From contig NZ_RCHI01000003.1 in assembly GCF_003664585.1 (NCBI RefSeq), positions 1-64,000 on the forward strand: 64,000 nucleotides of DNA. Reading direction: 5' to 3'. Each line of letters opens with the position of its first letter. Position 1 is the first letter of the stretch. The notes below the pieces were generated by a model. That model saw only the letters and a program-made list of their open reading frames with translations. It made no database searches and was not told where the DNA came from. This DNA comes from Paenirhodobacter hankyongi (GTDB lineage Bacteria > Pseudomonadota > Alphaproteobacteria > Rhodobacterales > Rhodobacteraceae). Below are positions 6,164 to 51,997 of this stretch, piece after piece. The translations under genes were made by a program, and so were the position numbers.

Positions 6164-8101
6164 TCACTCGCGGTTCAGCGCCACCACCGGGTCGAGCTGG
6201 GCCGCCGCGCGGGCGGGCAGGAAGCCGAAGGTCACCCCGATCAGCGTCGAGGACAGGAACGCCACCACGATCGCCGTGCCCGAGAAGGAGAGCGTCACCG
6301 TGGTATAGACCAGGCCGATCACCGCCCCCGCGCCAAGCGCCAGCGCGATGCCGAGCACGCCGCCGACCAGACAGACGAGCACCGCCTCGACCAGGAATTG
6401 CCCGACGATGTCGCTGCGCCGCGCGCCGACCGCCACGCGCACGCCGATCTCGCGGGTGCGCTCGGTGACCGAGACCAGCATGATGTTCATCACCCCGATG
6501 CCGCCGACGACCAGCGAGATCACCGCGATCGCGGCGACAAGCCAGGTCATCGTCTCGGTGGTCGAGGTGATCGTGGCGCGGATCGTGTCGCTGTTCGACA
6601 GGAAGAAGTCCTGCGTGCCGTGGCGGTTCAGCATCAGCGCGGTGATCTCGGACTGCGCCTTCGTCATGTCATAGCTGTCGGCGATCTTCACCCCGATGCT
6701 GTCGAGGTAATTCTGCCCCGACACCCGCGACATCGCCGTGGTGTAGGGGATCCAGACGTTCAGCGACGAGGGGCCGAAGGTCGCGCCGGTCGAGCGCACG
6801 ACGCCGATCACCCGCACCGGCACATGGCCGAGGATCAGCACCTGGCCCAGAGGGTCCTCGCCGTTCGGGAAGAAGGTGTCGCGGGTATCCTCGTCGATCA
6901 CCGCGACCTGCGCAAGCTCGGTCACGTCGCGGCTGTCGAACTGCTGGCCGTCGACGGTCTCGTAGGCGTGGACGGCAAAGTAATCGCCGCTCACCCCGTT
7001 CACCGCGGCCGTGGCCGAGACATTGCCATGCAGCACGTTCGAGCTGTTCGAGACCGCGGGCGAGACGCCGTCGGCATAGGGTTGCAGCGCGATCATCGAG
7101 GCGTCCGAGGGCATCAGCGTCTCGGTCTTGCCGGCGTCGCGCGCGCCAAAGCCGGTGCCCGCGCGCACGGTGATCGTGTTCGTGCCGAGCGACGAGATGT
7201 TCTGCAGGATCTTCTCCTGCGTGCCCGAGCCGAGCGCCACCACCAGCACCACCGAGGCGATGCCGATGATGATGCCGAGCATGGTCAGGAACGAGCGCAC
7301 CCGATGCGCCAGCATCGCCTTCAGCGCCATCGACAGCGTCTCGCTTGCGCGGCGCAAAAGCGCGCCGGCGCCGCGCTCCGCGGTGGCGGGACGGGCGGCG
7401 CCCTCCCCGGCCTCGGTGCGGCCGCTGTCGCGCACGATCCGGCCGTCGCTGATCTCGATCTCGCGGCGGGCATGGGCGGCCACGGTCGGGTCATGGGTGA
7501 CGACGATCACCGTGTGCCCCTTGGCGTTCAGATCGAGCAGCAGCTCGATCAGCTCGGCCGAGCTTTTCGTGTCGAGCGCGCCGGTCGGCTCGTCGGCCAG
7601 GATCACCTCGCCGCCGTTGATCAGCGCGCGCGCCACCGAGACGCGCTGCTGCTGGCCGCCCGAAAGCTCGTTCGGCCGGTGGTCGAGCCGGGTGCCGAGG
7701 CCGAGCTGGGTCAGCAGCTCGGTCGCGCGCCTGCGCCGGCTGGCGCGCCCCTCGCCCGCATAGATCGCCGGCACCTCGACGTTGCCGACCGCATCGAGAT
7801 CACCGAGCAACTGATAGCGCTGGAAGATGAAGCCGAAATGCTCGCGCCGCAGCCGGGCGAGCGCGTCGGGGTCAAGCCCGCCCACATCCTCGCCCGCGAA
7901 GCGATAGCTGCCCGCGCTCGGCCGGTCGAGACAGCCGAGGATGTTCATCAGCGTCGACTTGCCCGAGCCCGAGGCGCCGATGATCGCCACGAATTCGCCC
8001 GGCCAGATGTCGAGATCGACGTCGCGCAGGACGGTGATCGTCTCCTCACCGGCCTGGAAGGAGCGGCCGACGCCGCGCACGGAAATCAGCGGATCGCTCA
8101 T
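6164..8101 (-). CDS. macB: MacB-type ABC transporter, fused ATPase and permease
   Basis: A 645-residue exporter subunit of the MacAB tripartite type, which acts from the periplasm with a TolC-like channel. The N-terminal ATPase carries Walker A GASGSGKST (42-50), signature LSGGQ (146-150) and Walker B VILADEPT (166-173). The C-terminal half has a first membrane helix (about 270-295), a large periplasmic domain with NTITVRAGTGFG, and three further helices near the end (FtsX-like permease). It ends two bases from macA in the macA-macB order and is followed closely by ttrS. Substrate is not evident; relatives export macrolides, peptides or siderophores. Confidence 0.92.
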   Translation of the reverse strand: MSDPLISVRGVGRSFQAGEETITVLRDVDLDIWPGEFVAIIGASGSGKSTLMNILGCLDRPSAGSYRFAGEDVGGLDPDALARLRREHFGFIFQRYQLLGDLDAVGNVEVPAIYAGEGRASRRRRATELLTQLGLGTRLDHRPNELSGGQQQRVSVARALINGGEVILADEPTGALDTKSSAELIELLLDLNAKGHTVIVVTHDPTVAAHARREIEISDGRIVRDSGRTEAGEGAARPATAERGAGALLRRASETLSMALKAMLAHRVRSFLTMLGIIIGIASVVLVVALGSGTQEKILQNISSLGTNTITVRAGTGFGARDAGKTETLMPSDASMIALQPYADGVSPAVSNSSNVLHGNVSATAAVNGVSGDYFAVHAYETVDGQQFDSRDVTELAQVAVIDEDTRDTFFPNGEDPLGQVLILGHVPVRVIGVVRSTGATFGPSSLNVWIPYTTAMSRVSGQNYLDSIGVKIADSYDMTKAQSEITALMLNRHGTQDFFLSNSDTIRATITSTTETMTWLVAAIAVISLVVGGIGVMNIMLVSVTERTREIGVRVAVGARRSDIVGQFLVEAVLVCLVGGVLGIALALGAGAVIGLVYTTVTLSFSGTAIVVAFLSSTLIGVTFGFLPARAAAQLDPVVALNRE

Positions 8102-10385: not shown

Positions 10386-10528
10386 CGTCATCCCCGTTCG
10401 CGGCGCCCCGAGGGCGGTGCTGCGCGCAGCGCGCGGCTGCGCCGAAATGTCGCGTATGTTTACCGCGGCGCGGCATCCCGGTCCATGGCGAACCGTGCCC
10501 GGCAGCCCTGCCCTGCGCCACGCGAAAC

Positions 10529-21780: not shown

Positions 21781-21794
21781 TTGAGCCAGATCAA
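21781..21794 (-). promoter_or_regulatory. FNR/FnrL-like box upstream of the copper cluster
   Basis: TTGAGCCAGATCAA matches TTGAT-N4-ATCAA at nine of ten defined positions. Centred at 21787.5, it would place a class II start site near 21746, with TATCCT at the correct -12 to -7 position and a 24-nt leader before the lipoprotein ATG. Confidence 0.6.
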
Positions 21795-49685: not shown

Positions 49686-49795
49686 CCTTTTGGCCGCGGC
49701 GCCCCCGACTCGCCCTTTCGTGAGGCGGCGTGATTTGCCCCCGGAGGGGCATCGTGGGAGCATTCGGCAACACGAAGATGAGGACAGGACAGAAC

Positions 49796-50389
49796 ATGGC
49801 ACGGATCATTCTCAGCCGCCGCGCGGCACTCGCGGCGGGGGCTGCATCGCTTTTCGCCCCGGCGATTGCGCGCGCCGGCACGCAGGACATTCCGATGGCC
49901 GATCAGCCGGCGATCGTCGCGCCGCAGATGCGCGCGAACATCTCGTCCTTCCGCGAGATCGACTGGCGCGACCATTTCGACCGGCTCGACCGGGTGACGC
50001 TGATCGCCGACACGGTGTCGAAGGCGCTGCACTACTGGGCCGTCGATGGCGCGGATTACCGGCTCTATCCGACCTCGGTGCCGAAAAGCCCCGAGCTGAC
50101 GCGGACCGGCTATACCGAGATCGTGCGCAAGAAGATCGGGCCGAGCTGGACCCCCACGCCCTCGATGATCGCCGCGGACCCCTCGCTGCACGCGATGCCG
50201 CCCGGACCGGACAACCCGCTCGGCACCCATGCGATGTATCTGAGCTGGCCCGCCTACATCATCCACGGCACCCATGACACCCGCAAGATCGGGCGCAAGA
50301 GCTCGTCGGGCTGCATCGGGCTTTTCAACGAGCAGATCGAGGAGCTTTTCGGCCTGTGCCCGATCGGCACGCAGGTGAAGCTGATCTGA
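49796..50389 (+). CDS. L,D-transpeptidase (YkuD domain), exported
   Basis: A 197-residue protein. A leader with SRRAALAAGAASLFAPAIARA suggests export, with paired arginines. The YkuD catalytic region reads YIIHGTHDTRKIGRKSSSGCIGLFN (HGTH then SSSGC, with Cys nucleophile about 181), the pattern of enzymes that form 3-3 cross-links in peptidoglycan or attach lipoproteins. ATG at 49796 keeps a short leader; an ATG at 49778 is also in frame. A hairpin at 50413-50439 lies 24 bases past the stop. Confidence 0.9.
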   Translation: MARIILSRRAALAAGAASLFAPAIARAGTQDIPMADQPAIVAPQMRANISSFREIDWRDHFDRLDRVTLIADTVSKALHYWAVDGADYRLYPTSVPKSPELTRTGYTEIVRKKIGPSWTPTPSMIAADPSLHAMPPGPDNPLGTHAMYLSWPAYIIHGTHDTRKIGRKSSSGCIGLFNEQIEELFGLCPIGTQVKLI

Positions 50390-50402: not shown

Positions 50403-50439
50403 AAAAAATAAAGCGCTGCGGGAGGGAGGCCCGCAGCGC
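50403..50439 (-). terminator. Intrinsic terminator of the putative sRNA
   Basis: On the minus strand GCGCTGCGGG, loop CCTCCCT, then CCCGCAGCGC, followed directly by TTTATTTTTT. A 10-bp perfect stem with a long U tail. On the plus strand the same hairpin lacks a U tail, so it serves mainly the minus strand. Confidence 0.9.
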
Positions 50440-50526
50440 ATTGTTGAACCCGACGAGGGAGAACGTCCAAGGTTCGGTCAGGTTCCGCCGGCTTGCGCCG
50501 TGTTTCAGGGAGATCAGGAACCTGAT
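50404..50526 (-). ncRNA. Candidate FnrL-activated small RNA (about 120 nt)
   Basis: Between convergent genes, a perfect FNR box at 50561-50574 is centred 41.5 bases before 50526, with TAGAAC exactly at -12 to -7 (50538-50533), the geometry of a class II FNR promoter. The following RNA would begin with CAGGTTCC, pairing with GGAACCTG 30 bases later (arms 50524-50517 and 50486-50479), with an inner CGGC-GCAA-GCCG hairpin. A second arm pair GAACC/GGTTC encloses ACG-TTCTCCCT-CGT, and the terminator hairpin exposes CCTCCCT. CTCCCT occurs three times, each in a predicted unpaired part, and is complementary to Shine-Dalgarno sequences. No coding capacity is evident. Transcription is inferred, not shown. 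Confidence 0.68.
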
Positions 50527-50560
50527 GCGTTTGTTCTACGCGGCGGTGCAGCGGGCAACG

Positions 50561-50574
50561 TTGATCCAGATCAA
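50561..50574 (-). promoter_or_regulatory. Perfect FNR/FnrL box
   Basis: TTGATCCAGATCAA matches TTGAT-N4-ATCAA at all ten defined positions. It lies in a gap between the 3' ends of two convergent genes, so it cannot serve either as a promoter; its spacing to a -10 element and terminator on the minus strand points to the putative sRNA. Confidence 0.75.
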
Positions 50575-50623
50575 GATTTCCGGGGCGCAGGCTGCGACAT
50601 TTTGACGGCCCGCGCGCGAGGCC

Positions 50624-51997
50624 TCACAGCTTCGCCAGCCCCTGCCGGATCGCCCGGTTGTCGCCACGCTTCAGCACCCATTCGCCCAGCCGCCGCGCCA
50701 GCCGCTTGTGCCCCTTTGCCACCGCCCGCTCGAACAGCTCGCGCTGATAGCGCGCGAAATCCTTGCGCGCGCGCAGCCGGCGATAAAAGGCGGCCTCGGT
50801 CAGCGTGCCGTCGAGCGCCCCCAGGATGATCGGGCTCAGGATCCCCATCTGGCTGAGCGAGGAGCCGAGCCGGTGGCCCAGAAGCGGGGCGCGCAGCTTC
50901 ATCACATTCGCCCCCTGAAACCGCGCGGCATGCTGCGCGTCGAGCGGCTCATAGGGATCATAGAGCAGCGCGATGCGCCGCGCCGCGCCGCTCACAAGCG
51001 CCGCATCGCCGTATTTGCCGCTGAAATCCGCGCCCCAGACCGTCTTGTAGCGCGTTTCCCAGGGCACAACGGTCTTGTCGACCGTCGATTGCGGCGAGAT
51101 CGCCACCACATCCGCCCCCGGACAGGCGCCCGAGAAGGCGCAGGCGGCATAGCCGCCCATCGAGGCGCCATAGAACACCACCCGGTCGAACTGCGCAAAG
51201 AAGCCCTCGGCCGCCAGCCGGTCGAACTCGGCCGGGACCCAGGGGGTGCGATACCAGGTCCAGCCGCCCGCCATCACGCCCAGCATCGACCAGCCCTGCT
51301 TCTCGATGAAGGCAAAGCCCCAGGGCCGACGGTCGTCGCGCTTGTTCATCGCGATGTCGAGGTTGTCGAAGGTGACGACCAGCACCTTCTTCGAGCGCGG
51401 GATATAAAGGAAGCTGTGGCCATCGGTCTCGCGATAGAAGCCGTCGGGCCCCGCAAGCCCCTGCGCGATCGCGGCCCAGCCATCATCAGCCACCGGCGCC
51501 GGCGCATTCGGGGTGAACACCACCCGCCGCACCGACTTGCCGTCGCGGGGCGGCAGCTCGGCCACGATCTCGGTCTCGCCGAAGTCCTTGAGGAACGGGA
51601 AGCTGCCGGTGCCATGGCGGATGTCGAGAACCATCCGGCTGTCGGCATGCAGCACCGTCTCGAGCACCTCTTTCAGATGCTTGATCTTGTGCCGGTCGCC
51701 CCAGCCCGCAAGGTTCAGCAGCAGATCGACGGCGCGCAGCTCGGCGCCGGTCGTGACCACACGCACCCGGCCCGGGTCCACCCCCGCCGCCTCGAGCGCG
51801 GCAAGATAGGGGGCAACCCAGTCCGAGCGCAGCCCGCTCCAGCTGCCATTCGCGCCCATGTCGATCAAGGTGATGTCGCAATCCCAGCGGTCATGCGCCG
51901 CGATCACCTGCGCCAGCGCCCCGCCGCCGAGATCGGCGACCGAGGCCACCTGCGTCAGCCCCGTCGCCGCGAACAGCCCGTCCTGTGCCCCGGCCAT
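50624..51997 (-). CDS. Two-domain protein with a C-terminal alpha/beta-hydrolase-like fold
   Basis: A 457-residue protein of unknown function. The N-terminal half (about 1-150) has Rossmann-like strands (DITLIDMGANGSWSGLRSDWV, RMVLDIRHGTGSF). The C-terminal half has KKVLVVTFDNLD, then FDRVVFYGASMGGYAACAFSGACPGADVVAISPQ, with the nucleophile-elbow pattern G-x-S-x-G-G (Ser279), and IALLYDPYEPLDAQHA as a candidate acid region. The protein of 57640-58611 is clearly related to this half. It starts four bases after the GT32-like gene ends, so the two form a unit at the left of the glycosyltransferase island. Confidence 0.75.
   Translation of the reverse strand: MAGAQDGLFAATGLTQVASVADLGGGALAQVIAAHDRWDCDITLIDMGANGSWSGLRSDWVAPYLAALEAAGVDPGRVRVVTTGAELRAVDLLLNLAGWGDRHKIKHLKEVLETVLHADSRMVLDIRHGTGSFPFLKDFGETEIVAELPPRDGKSVRRVVFTPNAPAPVADDGWAAIAQGLAGPDGFYRETDGHSFLYIPRSKKVLVVTFDNLDIAMNKRDDRRPWGFAFIEKQGWSMLGVMAGGWTWYRTPWVPAEFDRLAAEGFFAQFDRVVFYGASMGGYAACAFSGACPGADVVAISPQSTVDKTVVPWETRYKTVWGADFSGKYGDAALVSGAARRIALLYDPYEPLDAQHAARFQGANVMKLRAPLLGHRLGSSLSQMGILSPIILGALDGTLTEAAFYRRLRARKDFARYQRELFERAVAKGHKRLARRLGEWVLKRGDNRAIRQGLAKL

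Follow-up and report, generated by a model that had tools for sequence, protein, structure and literature searches.

The minus strand of a Paenirhodobacter hankyongi contig carries, between two convergent genes, what is best read as a stand-alone gene whose product, about 124 nt long, would be a non-coding RNA that acts in trans. (By "the window" we mean the whole stretch of DNA that was analysed, 64,000 nucleotides.) Based on comparisons with related genomes, the locus from about 50526 down to 50403 is almost certainly a real sRNA gene. As a whole, the RNA is likely to be an FnrL-activated, and probably also RegA-bound, low-oxygen sRNA, which would block translation by pairing with AGGGAG-type sites. 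The gene boundaries, the conservation of the promoter boxes, the RNA structure, the independence from the upstream gene, and the identification of FnrL, RegB, and RegA in the host all come from comparison. The confidence that we express in the gene, in its control by the FNR family, in RegA as an input, and in silencing was judged and not computed.

The predicted sRNA locus and its boundaries

A sequence-only reading of this DNA had noticed a perfect FNR box between two convergent 3' ends. The box is present (TTGATCCAGATCAA at 50561–50574). It is flanked by the end of an L,D-transpeptidase gene on the plus strand (50389) and the end of an ORF on the minus strand (50624). These 3' ends face each other across the sRNA locus (Table 1). 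The same reading saw TAGAAC on the minus strand where a class II promoter would need its -10, and we find it there, at 50538–50533; with +1 at 50526, the box is centered at -41.5. The 10-bp terminator stem that it described runs from 50439 to 50413, with all 10 pairs, and is followed by TTTATTTTTT.

The sRNA interpretation is supported by the relatives of this locus. Conservation of the box, the stems, and the terminator was the check that the earlier reading had named, and all three are conserved (see below). Expression at low oxygen and the silencing of mRNAs, which it had also proposed, are what we infer from these features. Our analysis adds a second, RegA-like promoter box, an architecture that resembles alpha-r14/NfeR1, and the spread of related RNAs across the family.

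The boundaries of the gene are apparent from 16 relatives with strong BLAST matches. All 16 matches extend to the terminator, and 8 of them start no more than 3 bases from the predicted +1 (50526). The remaining matches start 18 bases upstream of +1 (three relatives) or 26 bases upstream (one relative) or include the promoter (four relatives). Also, a covariance model for the RNA matches the window at exactly 50403–50526 (the window's RNA is itself part of this model). We rejected the idea that the RNA is coding: its only ATG, found at the terminator's base, is missing from the R. capsulatus RNA. Other homologs have ATGs at other places.

Table 1. Features of the sRNA locus and its flanking genes, with positions in the window.
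Feature	Position	Strand	Basis
L,D-transpeptidase (YkuD) gene, flanking	49730..50389	+	Pfam PF03734, 62.9 bits; convergent, context only
Predicted sRNA, ~124 nt, class II +1 to end of U tract	50403..50526	-	Box/-10 geometry, terminator, fold
U tract TTTATTTTTT	50403..50412	-	T-rich tail in 23 aligned homologs
Terminator stem, 10 bp; loop CCUCCCU = anti-SD site 3 (CCTCCCTCCC, 50429-50420)	50413..50439	-	Sequence, alignment, covariation
Hairpin 2, with anti-SD site 2 in the loop	50446..50475	-	Fold, RNAalifold, covariation
Anti-SD site 2, CUCCCU	50456..50461	-	UCUCCC invariant in 23 aligned homologs
Hairpin 1, 9-bp stem, around anti-SD site 1 and the GCAA hairpin	50478..50525	-	Fold; two-sided changes in all 6 modelled pairs
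Inner hairpin CGGC-GCAA-GCCG	50489..50500	-	Fold
Anti-SD site 1, CUCCCU	50507..50512	-	UCUCCCUGA invariant in 23 aligned homologs
-10 hexamer TAGAAC	50533..50538	-	Sequence
FNR-type box TTGATCTGGATCAA, center -41.5	50561..50574	-	TTGA-N6-TCAA kept in 31/32 distinct loci
Second conserved promoter box CCGTCAAAATGTCGC, RegA/PrrA-like, center about -75	50594..50608	-	RegA matrix, NGTCGCA conservation
ORF upstream, co-directional	50624..51997	-	No Pfam match; context only

Distribution of the RNA

Using a 211-base query, we found strong matches (E ≤ 1e-18) in 14 of 17 other genomes of the same genus and in 2 of 19 genomes from other genera of the family. Three genomes of the genus had no strong match, and two of these are 99–100% complete. 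With the same query, there were no strong matches among 24 genomes from other families (best E = 0.003).

Scanning named genomes for the terminator pattern yielded 29 stretches. These include Rhodobacter capsulatus (two strains), R. viridis, R. aestuarii, R. maris, Sinirhodobacter, Phaeovulum, and Frigidibacter, and also Defluviimonas, Sedimentimonas, Pseudothioclava, and records labelled Gemmobacter, Cypionkella, and Tabrizicola. Together, the stretches from named genomes and the loci from the BLAST search give 32 distinct loci.

The covariance model matched 33 of 395 genomes of the family (E ≤ 0.001). Twelve of these matches are strong (87–137 bits) and 21 are weak (26–42 bits). Ten of the strong matches were already in the model, and those in genomes G223 and G264 were new to it. 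We examined 18 of the weak matches (from other genera), which are those with a fetched locus. TTGA-N6-TCAA was at -41 to -49 in five of them and at -95 in one; an FNR-like box was elsewhere in two, as judged by eye; and ten had no box. Several weak matches have neither CUCCC nor the box, so the weak matches are not all real. Nevertheless, judging from their sequences, RNAs that are headed by an FNR box and bear CUCCC probably extend past the core of the model. In a class-wide control with an unchanged threshold, the model matched just 1 of 288 other genomes (this draw includes some members of the family), and TTGA-N6-TCAA is absent from the 100 bases upstream of that lone match.

With the same draw settings, FnrL was found (E 1e-90) in 312 of the 395 family genomes, as compared to 33 with the RNA. 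Most genomes with FnrL therefore lack the RNA, and it does not belong to the FnrL response in general.

The host has one other match to the covariance model (E ≤ 10; 20.9 bits, locus L114). We rejected it as a second copy: it contains a single CTCCC, which is in the terminator, and has no FNR box in the 110 upstream bases. Plasmid records had no match to the sRNA. In another genome (G349, contig C30), two adjacent model matches lie on the minus strand, at 6692–6795 (41.8 bits) and 6989–7078 (27.7 bits). These are apparently tandem CUCCC-type RNAs, and an FNR-like box is absent from the 100 bases upstream of the better match.

The FNR box

Among the 18 sites in the window that match TTGAT-N4-ATCAA with at most two mismatches (6.7 expected), TTGATCCAGATCAA is the only perfect one. 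(A one-mismatch site, TTGAGCCAGATCAA, is at 21781–21794.) Across the distinct loci, TTGA-N6-TCAA is found upstream of the RNA in 31 of 32, and the end of the box is 108–129 bases before the terminator stem; the exception is L039, which has no box. In 26 of the 31 loci, by our reading of the sequences, TA is at the offset of the -10, give or take about one base. Because the +1 in the relatives was set from the box, the center at -41.5 is an observation for the window alone, and what the relatives test is the presence of the box and its distance from the terminator.

In the window, the orphan small transcript that we predict has its FNR box near -41.5, and the host encodes an oxygen-sensing FNR. 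This FnrL matches NCBIfam NF045989 with 467.6 bits (the cut-off is 300) and has the N-terminal C-X2-C-X7-C. Given these sequences, the sRNA promoter is very probably under the direct control of an FNR-family protein.

It is unlikely, but worth weighing, that the main reader of the box is a different member of the CRP/FNR family, either of the NO-sensing Dnr/NnrR type or CrpK/RedB-like, in which case the signal would be nitrogen oxides or redox state instead of oxygen. Six places in the host's genome are above the cut-off for HTH_Crp_2, and one of these adjoins an ORF for a putative pseudoazurin, which is a copper protein of denitrifiers. Furthermore, most of the homologs other than the closest relative carry TTGAC-N4-GTCAA instead of TTGAT-N4-ATCAA. 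However, the perfect FNR form is present both in the window and in its closest relative, and the FnrL consensus from ChIP in R. capsulatus is (T/C/A)TGA-N6-TCAA, with bound sites that include TTGAC-N4-GTCAA forms (available parts of PMC4634722). We favor FnrL as the main regulator. In the portion of the R. capsulatus FnrL ChIP table that was available, no entry could be placed at the sRNA locus, which is weak evidence because the table lists annotated genes.

A RegA-like box

A second conserved block lies upstream of the FNR box and reads AAAATGTCGCA or TTTTGTCGCA in many loci. Its NGTCGCA end is missing from four of 31 loci; in the other 27, its distance to the FNR box is 18 bp (25 loci) or 17 bp (two loci).

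To score this block, we built our own weight matrix for RegA from 31 ChIP-derived 15-mers in the available part of Table 2 of PMC5359404. The matrix is built without entry 27, which was outside that part, and without the near-identical entry 17, which was excluded deliberately; the motif is degenerate. With this matrix, 50594–50608 ranks first of all 127,972 15-mers in the window, counting both strands. Within the subset of loci that we scored, the ranks are 2 to 12 for four further variants but fall to between 49 and 846 for six 15-mers at more distant loci. The case for RegA is thus strong for loci close to the window and weakens with distance from it. The excluded ChIP site, CTGCCAAAATGTCGC, is one base away from the R. 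capsulatus copy and is identical at the R. viridis locus. The second-best match to the matrix within the window, GCGACATTTCGGCGC, is on the minus strand at 10439–10453.

The host encodes a RegA/PrrA regulator (322 bits, with an NCBIfam cut-off of 250) beside a RegB/PrrB kinase (559 bits, with a cut-off of 350). Both the matrix and the conservation of NGTCGCA point to a RegA recognition sequence in the promoter, and we lean towards RegA as a second input there. The available 32 of the 33 entries in the RegA ChIP table include no peak near 1.721 Mb of R. capsulatus; this table also lists annotated genes, so its silence carries little weight.

Predicted structure of the RNA

The predicted fold of the RNA has an energy of -53.8 kcal/mol, as compared to -36.1 (standard deviation 3.5) for shuffled sequences (z = -5.05), and 0 of 200 shuffles were as good. 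The sequence-only reading had listed an 8-bp stem, a GCAA-capped hairpin, and three CTCCCT motifs in loops. The first stem exists but has 9 perfect pairs (TCAGGTTCC/GGAACCTGA) rather than 8. The GCAA-capped hairpin was found in the window's RNA. The three motifs are all present, but the third is not confined to a loop, as it continues into the terminator stem as CCTCCCTCCC. In that stem, 9 of the 10 pairs are G-C.

Three or more CUCCC motifs occurred in just 0.8% of 5,000 order-1 resamples of the window's RNA. Across the 124 CUCCC motifs in 29 distinct homologous RNAs, the mean probability of being unpaired was 0.82, versus 0.24 for other C. To compare the RNAs position by position, we aligned 23 of the 29, after excluding four short forms and two near duplicates. 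In this alignment, all three CUCCC sites are invariant while the stems vary, and what stays constant in hairpins 1 and 2 is the short CUCCC loop.

RNAalifold predicts 25 pairs, and 10 of the 25 have two-sided changes. The number of two-sided cells is 29, as compared to a mean of 7.7 in shuffled alignments, and 0 of 500 shuffles reached 29; these shuffles ignore kinship. Structures that were slid along the alignment gave at most 4, but the consensus structure was derived from the same sequences, so this control is biased in its favor.

In 10 of the 29 distinct homologs (L024, L041, L046, L047, L052, L054, L057, L059, L063, and L066), the inner GCAA-type loop is replaced by a loop with a further CUCCC. 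Judging from these replaced inner hairpins, it is as if the anti-SD loops were gained one by one.

Proposed mechanism and candidate targets

We propose that when oxygen is low, FnrL would act as a class II activator by binding at -41.5, and that RegA would probably bind the box near -75 as a second redox input. The RNA would fold as three hairpins, of which the last is the terminator, and each would display a C-rich CUCCC site. The CUCCC loops (three or four of them) could then pair with Shine-Dalgarno sequences of the AGGGAG type and block the loading of ribosomes. As oxygen drops, a set of mRNAs would be silenced, as described for NfeR1 in rhizobia. On this model, translational silencing through the CUCCC loops seems quite likely. 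Expression of the sRNA, its activation by FnrL and RegA, the repression of translation, and the targets are all things that we infer. (In E. coli, FnrS silences mRNAs by other contacts.)

Pairing with CUCCC is by itself of little target specificity. Another explanation is that the RNA is a general damper of translation, which would cover many Shine-Dalgarno sequences or compete for the tail of 16S rRNA and would have no selected targets. The invariance of the short CUCCC loops in hairpins 1 and 2 fits this idea, as does the finding that AGGGAGA-N3-10-ATG fits 63 places in the host's genome. But the bases adjacent to the sites are conserved as well (UCUCCCUGA at site 1 and UCUCCC at site 2), which is beyond what a damper would need, and in a control set from sRNA-positive genomes, GGGAG was present at just 18 of 114 starts with Shine-Dalgarno sequences. 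We consider a damper to be improbable and prefer the silencing of particular mRNAs.

To look for such mRNAs, we compared the places that fit AGGGAGA-N3-10-ATG in the host to those in genomes G010 (58 places) and G033 (41 places); 56, 51, and 39 proteins were kept, respectively. The genes in common to the three genomes are rpoH, fadJ, rpsH, and an MFS transporter. Two others are partly shared: pdhB in G000 and G033, and an acyl-CoA dehydrogenase gene in G010 and G033. RpoH and PdhB are above NCBIfam cut-offs, the dehydrogenase was named from Pfam, and RpsH and the MFS protein were assigned by reading. The fadJ fragment (352 residues) has FadJ as its best match but is below the cut-off for the full-length protein. 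Because rpsH is among the matches, AGGGAGA need not imply regulation.

GGGAG precedes fadJ in 16 of 17 sRNA-positive genomes versus 2 of 12 sRNA-negative genomes, and it precedes the acyl-CoA dehydrogenase gene in 17 of 17 versus 7 of 13. (Genes were matched in 36 genomes for fadJ and 40 for the dehydrogenase, of which 29 and 30 were scored; we excluded matches without a fetched locus and the fadJ of G036, which has no start. G001 was counted as sRNA-negative although it is 81% complete.) At other starts in the fetched loci, GGGAG is about as common in sRNA-positive genomes (18/114) as in negative ones (14/82), and AGGGAGA is rarer in sRNA-positive genomes (1/114 versus 6/82). These genes were picked for having the motif in sRNA-positive genomes, and the positive genomes are close kin, so the association is a lead and not a test. 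As targets, fadJ, the acyl-CoA dehydrogenase gene, pdhB, and rpoH are possible rather than probable on the strength of these motifs. Aerobic oxidation of fatty acids and pyruvate would make sense as a target, with the caveat that the choice of genes is biased and is uncorrected for kinship.

More speculatively, the RNA might be the founder of an unrecognized family of low-oxygen sRNAs in the Rhodobacteraceae. These RNAs would combine FnrL and RegA on one promoter, and by covering AGGGAG sites (in aerobic catabolism, namely β-oxidation and pyruvate dehydrogenase, and in rpoH) they would carry out the repressive side of both regulons. Their loops would multiply or be replaced between genera while the FNR control is kept.

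Independence from the upstream gene

Since the upstream ORF in the window is co-directional with the RNA, an origin from its 3' UTR had to be weighed. The locus could be the 3' UTR and terminator of that gene (50624–51997, minus strand), or else a SorX-like product of the UTR. Besides the orientation in the window, 8 of the 29 named loci have a homolog of the upstream gene that is on the same strand and ends no more than about 320 bases before the terminator. On the other hand, the conserved boxes sit at fixed spacing between the stop codon of the upstream gene and the RNA. Also, in R. capsulatus (L051), no homolog of the upstream gene was found within 4.6 kb upstream; the upstream ORFs are instead an overlapping row on the opposite strand, including one GSCFA-family protein. 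The ORF that adjoins the RNA there has no Pfam match, and its strand was assigned by reading. L051 retains the downstream order of L,D-transpeptidase and infC. The promoter boxes, the RNA, and the terminator are intact at L051, so the sRNA gene is independent of its upstream neighbor, and we consider a UTR origin to be quite improbable.

That an FNR-like box and a terminator came to lie together here by chance is barely credible: the window does hold eighteen FNR-like sites with up to two mismatches, but the relatives show conservation, covariation, and fixed spacing.

Relationship to known regulons and small RNAs

In the FnrL map of R. capsulatus, 34 of 82 peaks have no regulated neighbor (PMC4634722, in the available parts), and in that of R. 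sphaeroides, 13 sites are outside annotated upstream regions, of which two correspond to the sRNAs Pos19 and SorX (PMC4263372, likewise). One concrete explanation for such orphan peaks would be a conserved sRNA gene whose promoter has sites of the FnrL and RegA types, and this can be tested in R. capsulatus. Among the matches listed in our literature search (titles and the starts of abstracts), there was no FNR-dependent sRNA of this type; supplementary lists from RNA-seq may contain the transcript without a name.

At gathering thresholds, no Rfam family (including FnrS) matched the window. We rejected two families with weaker matches. The best match to ncS01 (25.5 bits) has an E value of 0.018, which is below the 0.031 of alpha-r14, but it is on the plus strand and is mostly to the terminator hairpin. 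The minus-strand match to ncS01 and the match to ncS54 rest largely on the terminator hairpin as well.

The sequence-only reading had drawn a parallel with PcrZ of R. sphaeroides. This holds for function, but there is no similarity in sequence or structure. PcrZ scores at most 2.1 bits with the covariance model and has only BLAST matches of 7–12 bases, so we rejected it as the same RNA, and TTGA-N6-TCAA is absent from the 420 bases upstream of PcrZ. The genome with this PcrZ locus (L368, G087:C4) is presumably R. sphaeroides 2.4.1. Beside PcrZ, a perfect TTGAT-N4-ATCAA (2566006–2566019) lies upstream of an ORF that resembles a small membrane protein. PcrZ is induced at low oxygen and depends on PrrA and FnrL (available text of PMC8139620). 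Unlike our RNA, PcrZ has no CUCCC within the 136 nt from its published start (as given in the available part of PMC6238624), and two CTCCC lie just beyond.

SorX (RSs2461) and Pos19 (RSs0019) are the R. sphaeroides sRNAs with FnrL ChIP sites (PMC4263372). We set both aside by their descriptions only, as SorX is a 75-nt product of a 3' UTR and Pos19 is a 219-nt RNA under RpoE (available parts of PMC4263372, PMC5036791, and PMC5502269).

FnrS of E. coli and Salmonella is similar to our RNA in being an sRNA gene with FNR-type control, and it accumulates without oxygen. However, FnrS is described as repressing over 30 mRNAs that are dispensable without oxygen, and it has no Rfam match in the window.

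The cuckoo RNAs of R. sphaeroides (CcsR1-4, or RSs0680a-d) share the design of several hairpins with anti-SD loops. They differ in being two-hairpin RNAs that are cut from the ccaF1 transcript with an RpoHI/RpoHII promoter, while ours is a single gene with an FNR-type promoter (available parts of PMC10253847 and PMC3927594). Also, the cuckoo loops are CCUCCUCCC, which is absent from the window's RNA. A linked gene for a small DUF1127 protein is another mark of the cuckoo RNAs; the neighbors scanned in the window are the L,D-transpeptidase gene and the ORF that has no Pfam match.

The closest description is an sRNA that is built like alpha-r14/NfeR1 and scores below that family's cut-off. NfeR1 is about 123 nt, with three hairpins whose anti-SD motifs are redundant in silencing, and its stems are variable while its loops are fixed (PMC10746234, in the available parts). 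Our RNA resembles alpha-r14 (RF02344) in its length and in its three hairpins with anti-SD motifs in unpaired regions, and the model aligns end to end on the correct strand. The scores are 22.4 bits in the window and 25.9–31.1 bits in 4 of 6 orthologous loci, as compared to a cut-off of 58.8, and the model had no match at E 0.5 in the other two loci. The loops differ too: those of alpha-r14 are all CCUCCUCCC, while ours are UCUCCCU, UCUCCCU, and CCUCCCUCCC. The promoter of NfeR1 is activated by LsrB and repressed by NtrC (PMC10746234), in contrast to the FNR/RegA-type promoter here. If our reading is correct, then a multi-hairpin RNA with anti-SD loops, a kind that has so far been described under stress and nitrogen control, would be under the direct control of oxygen.
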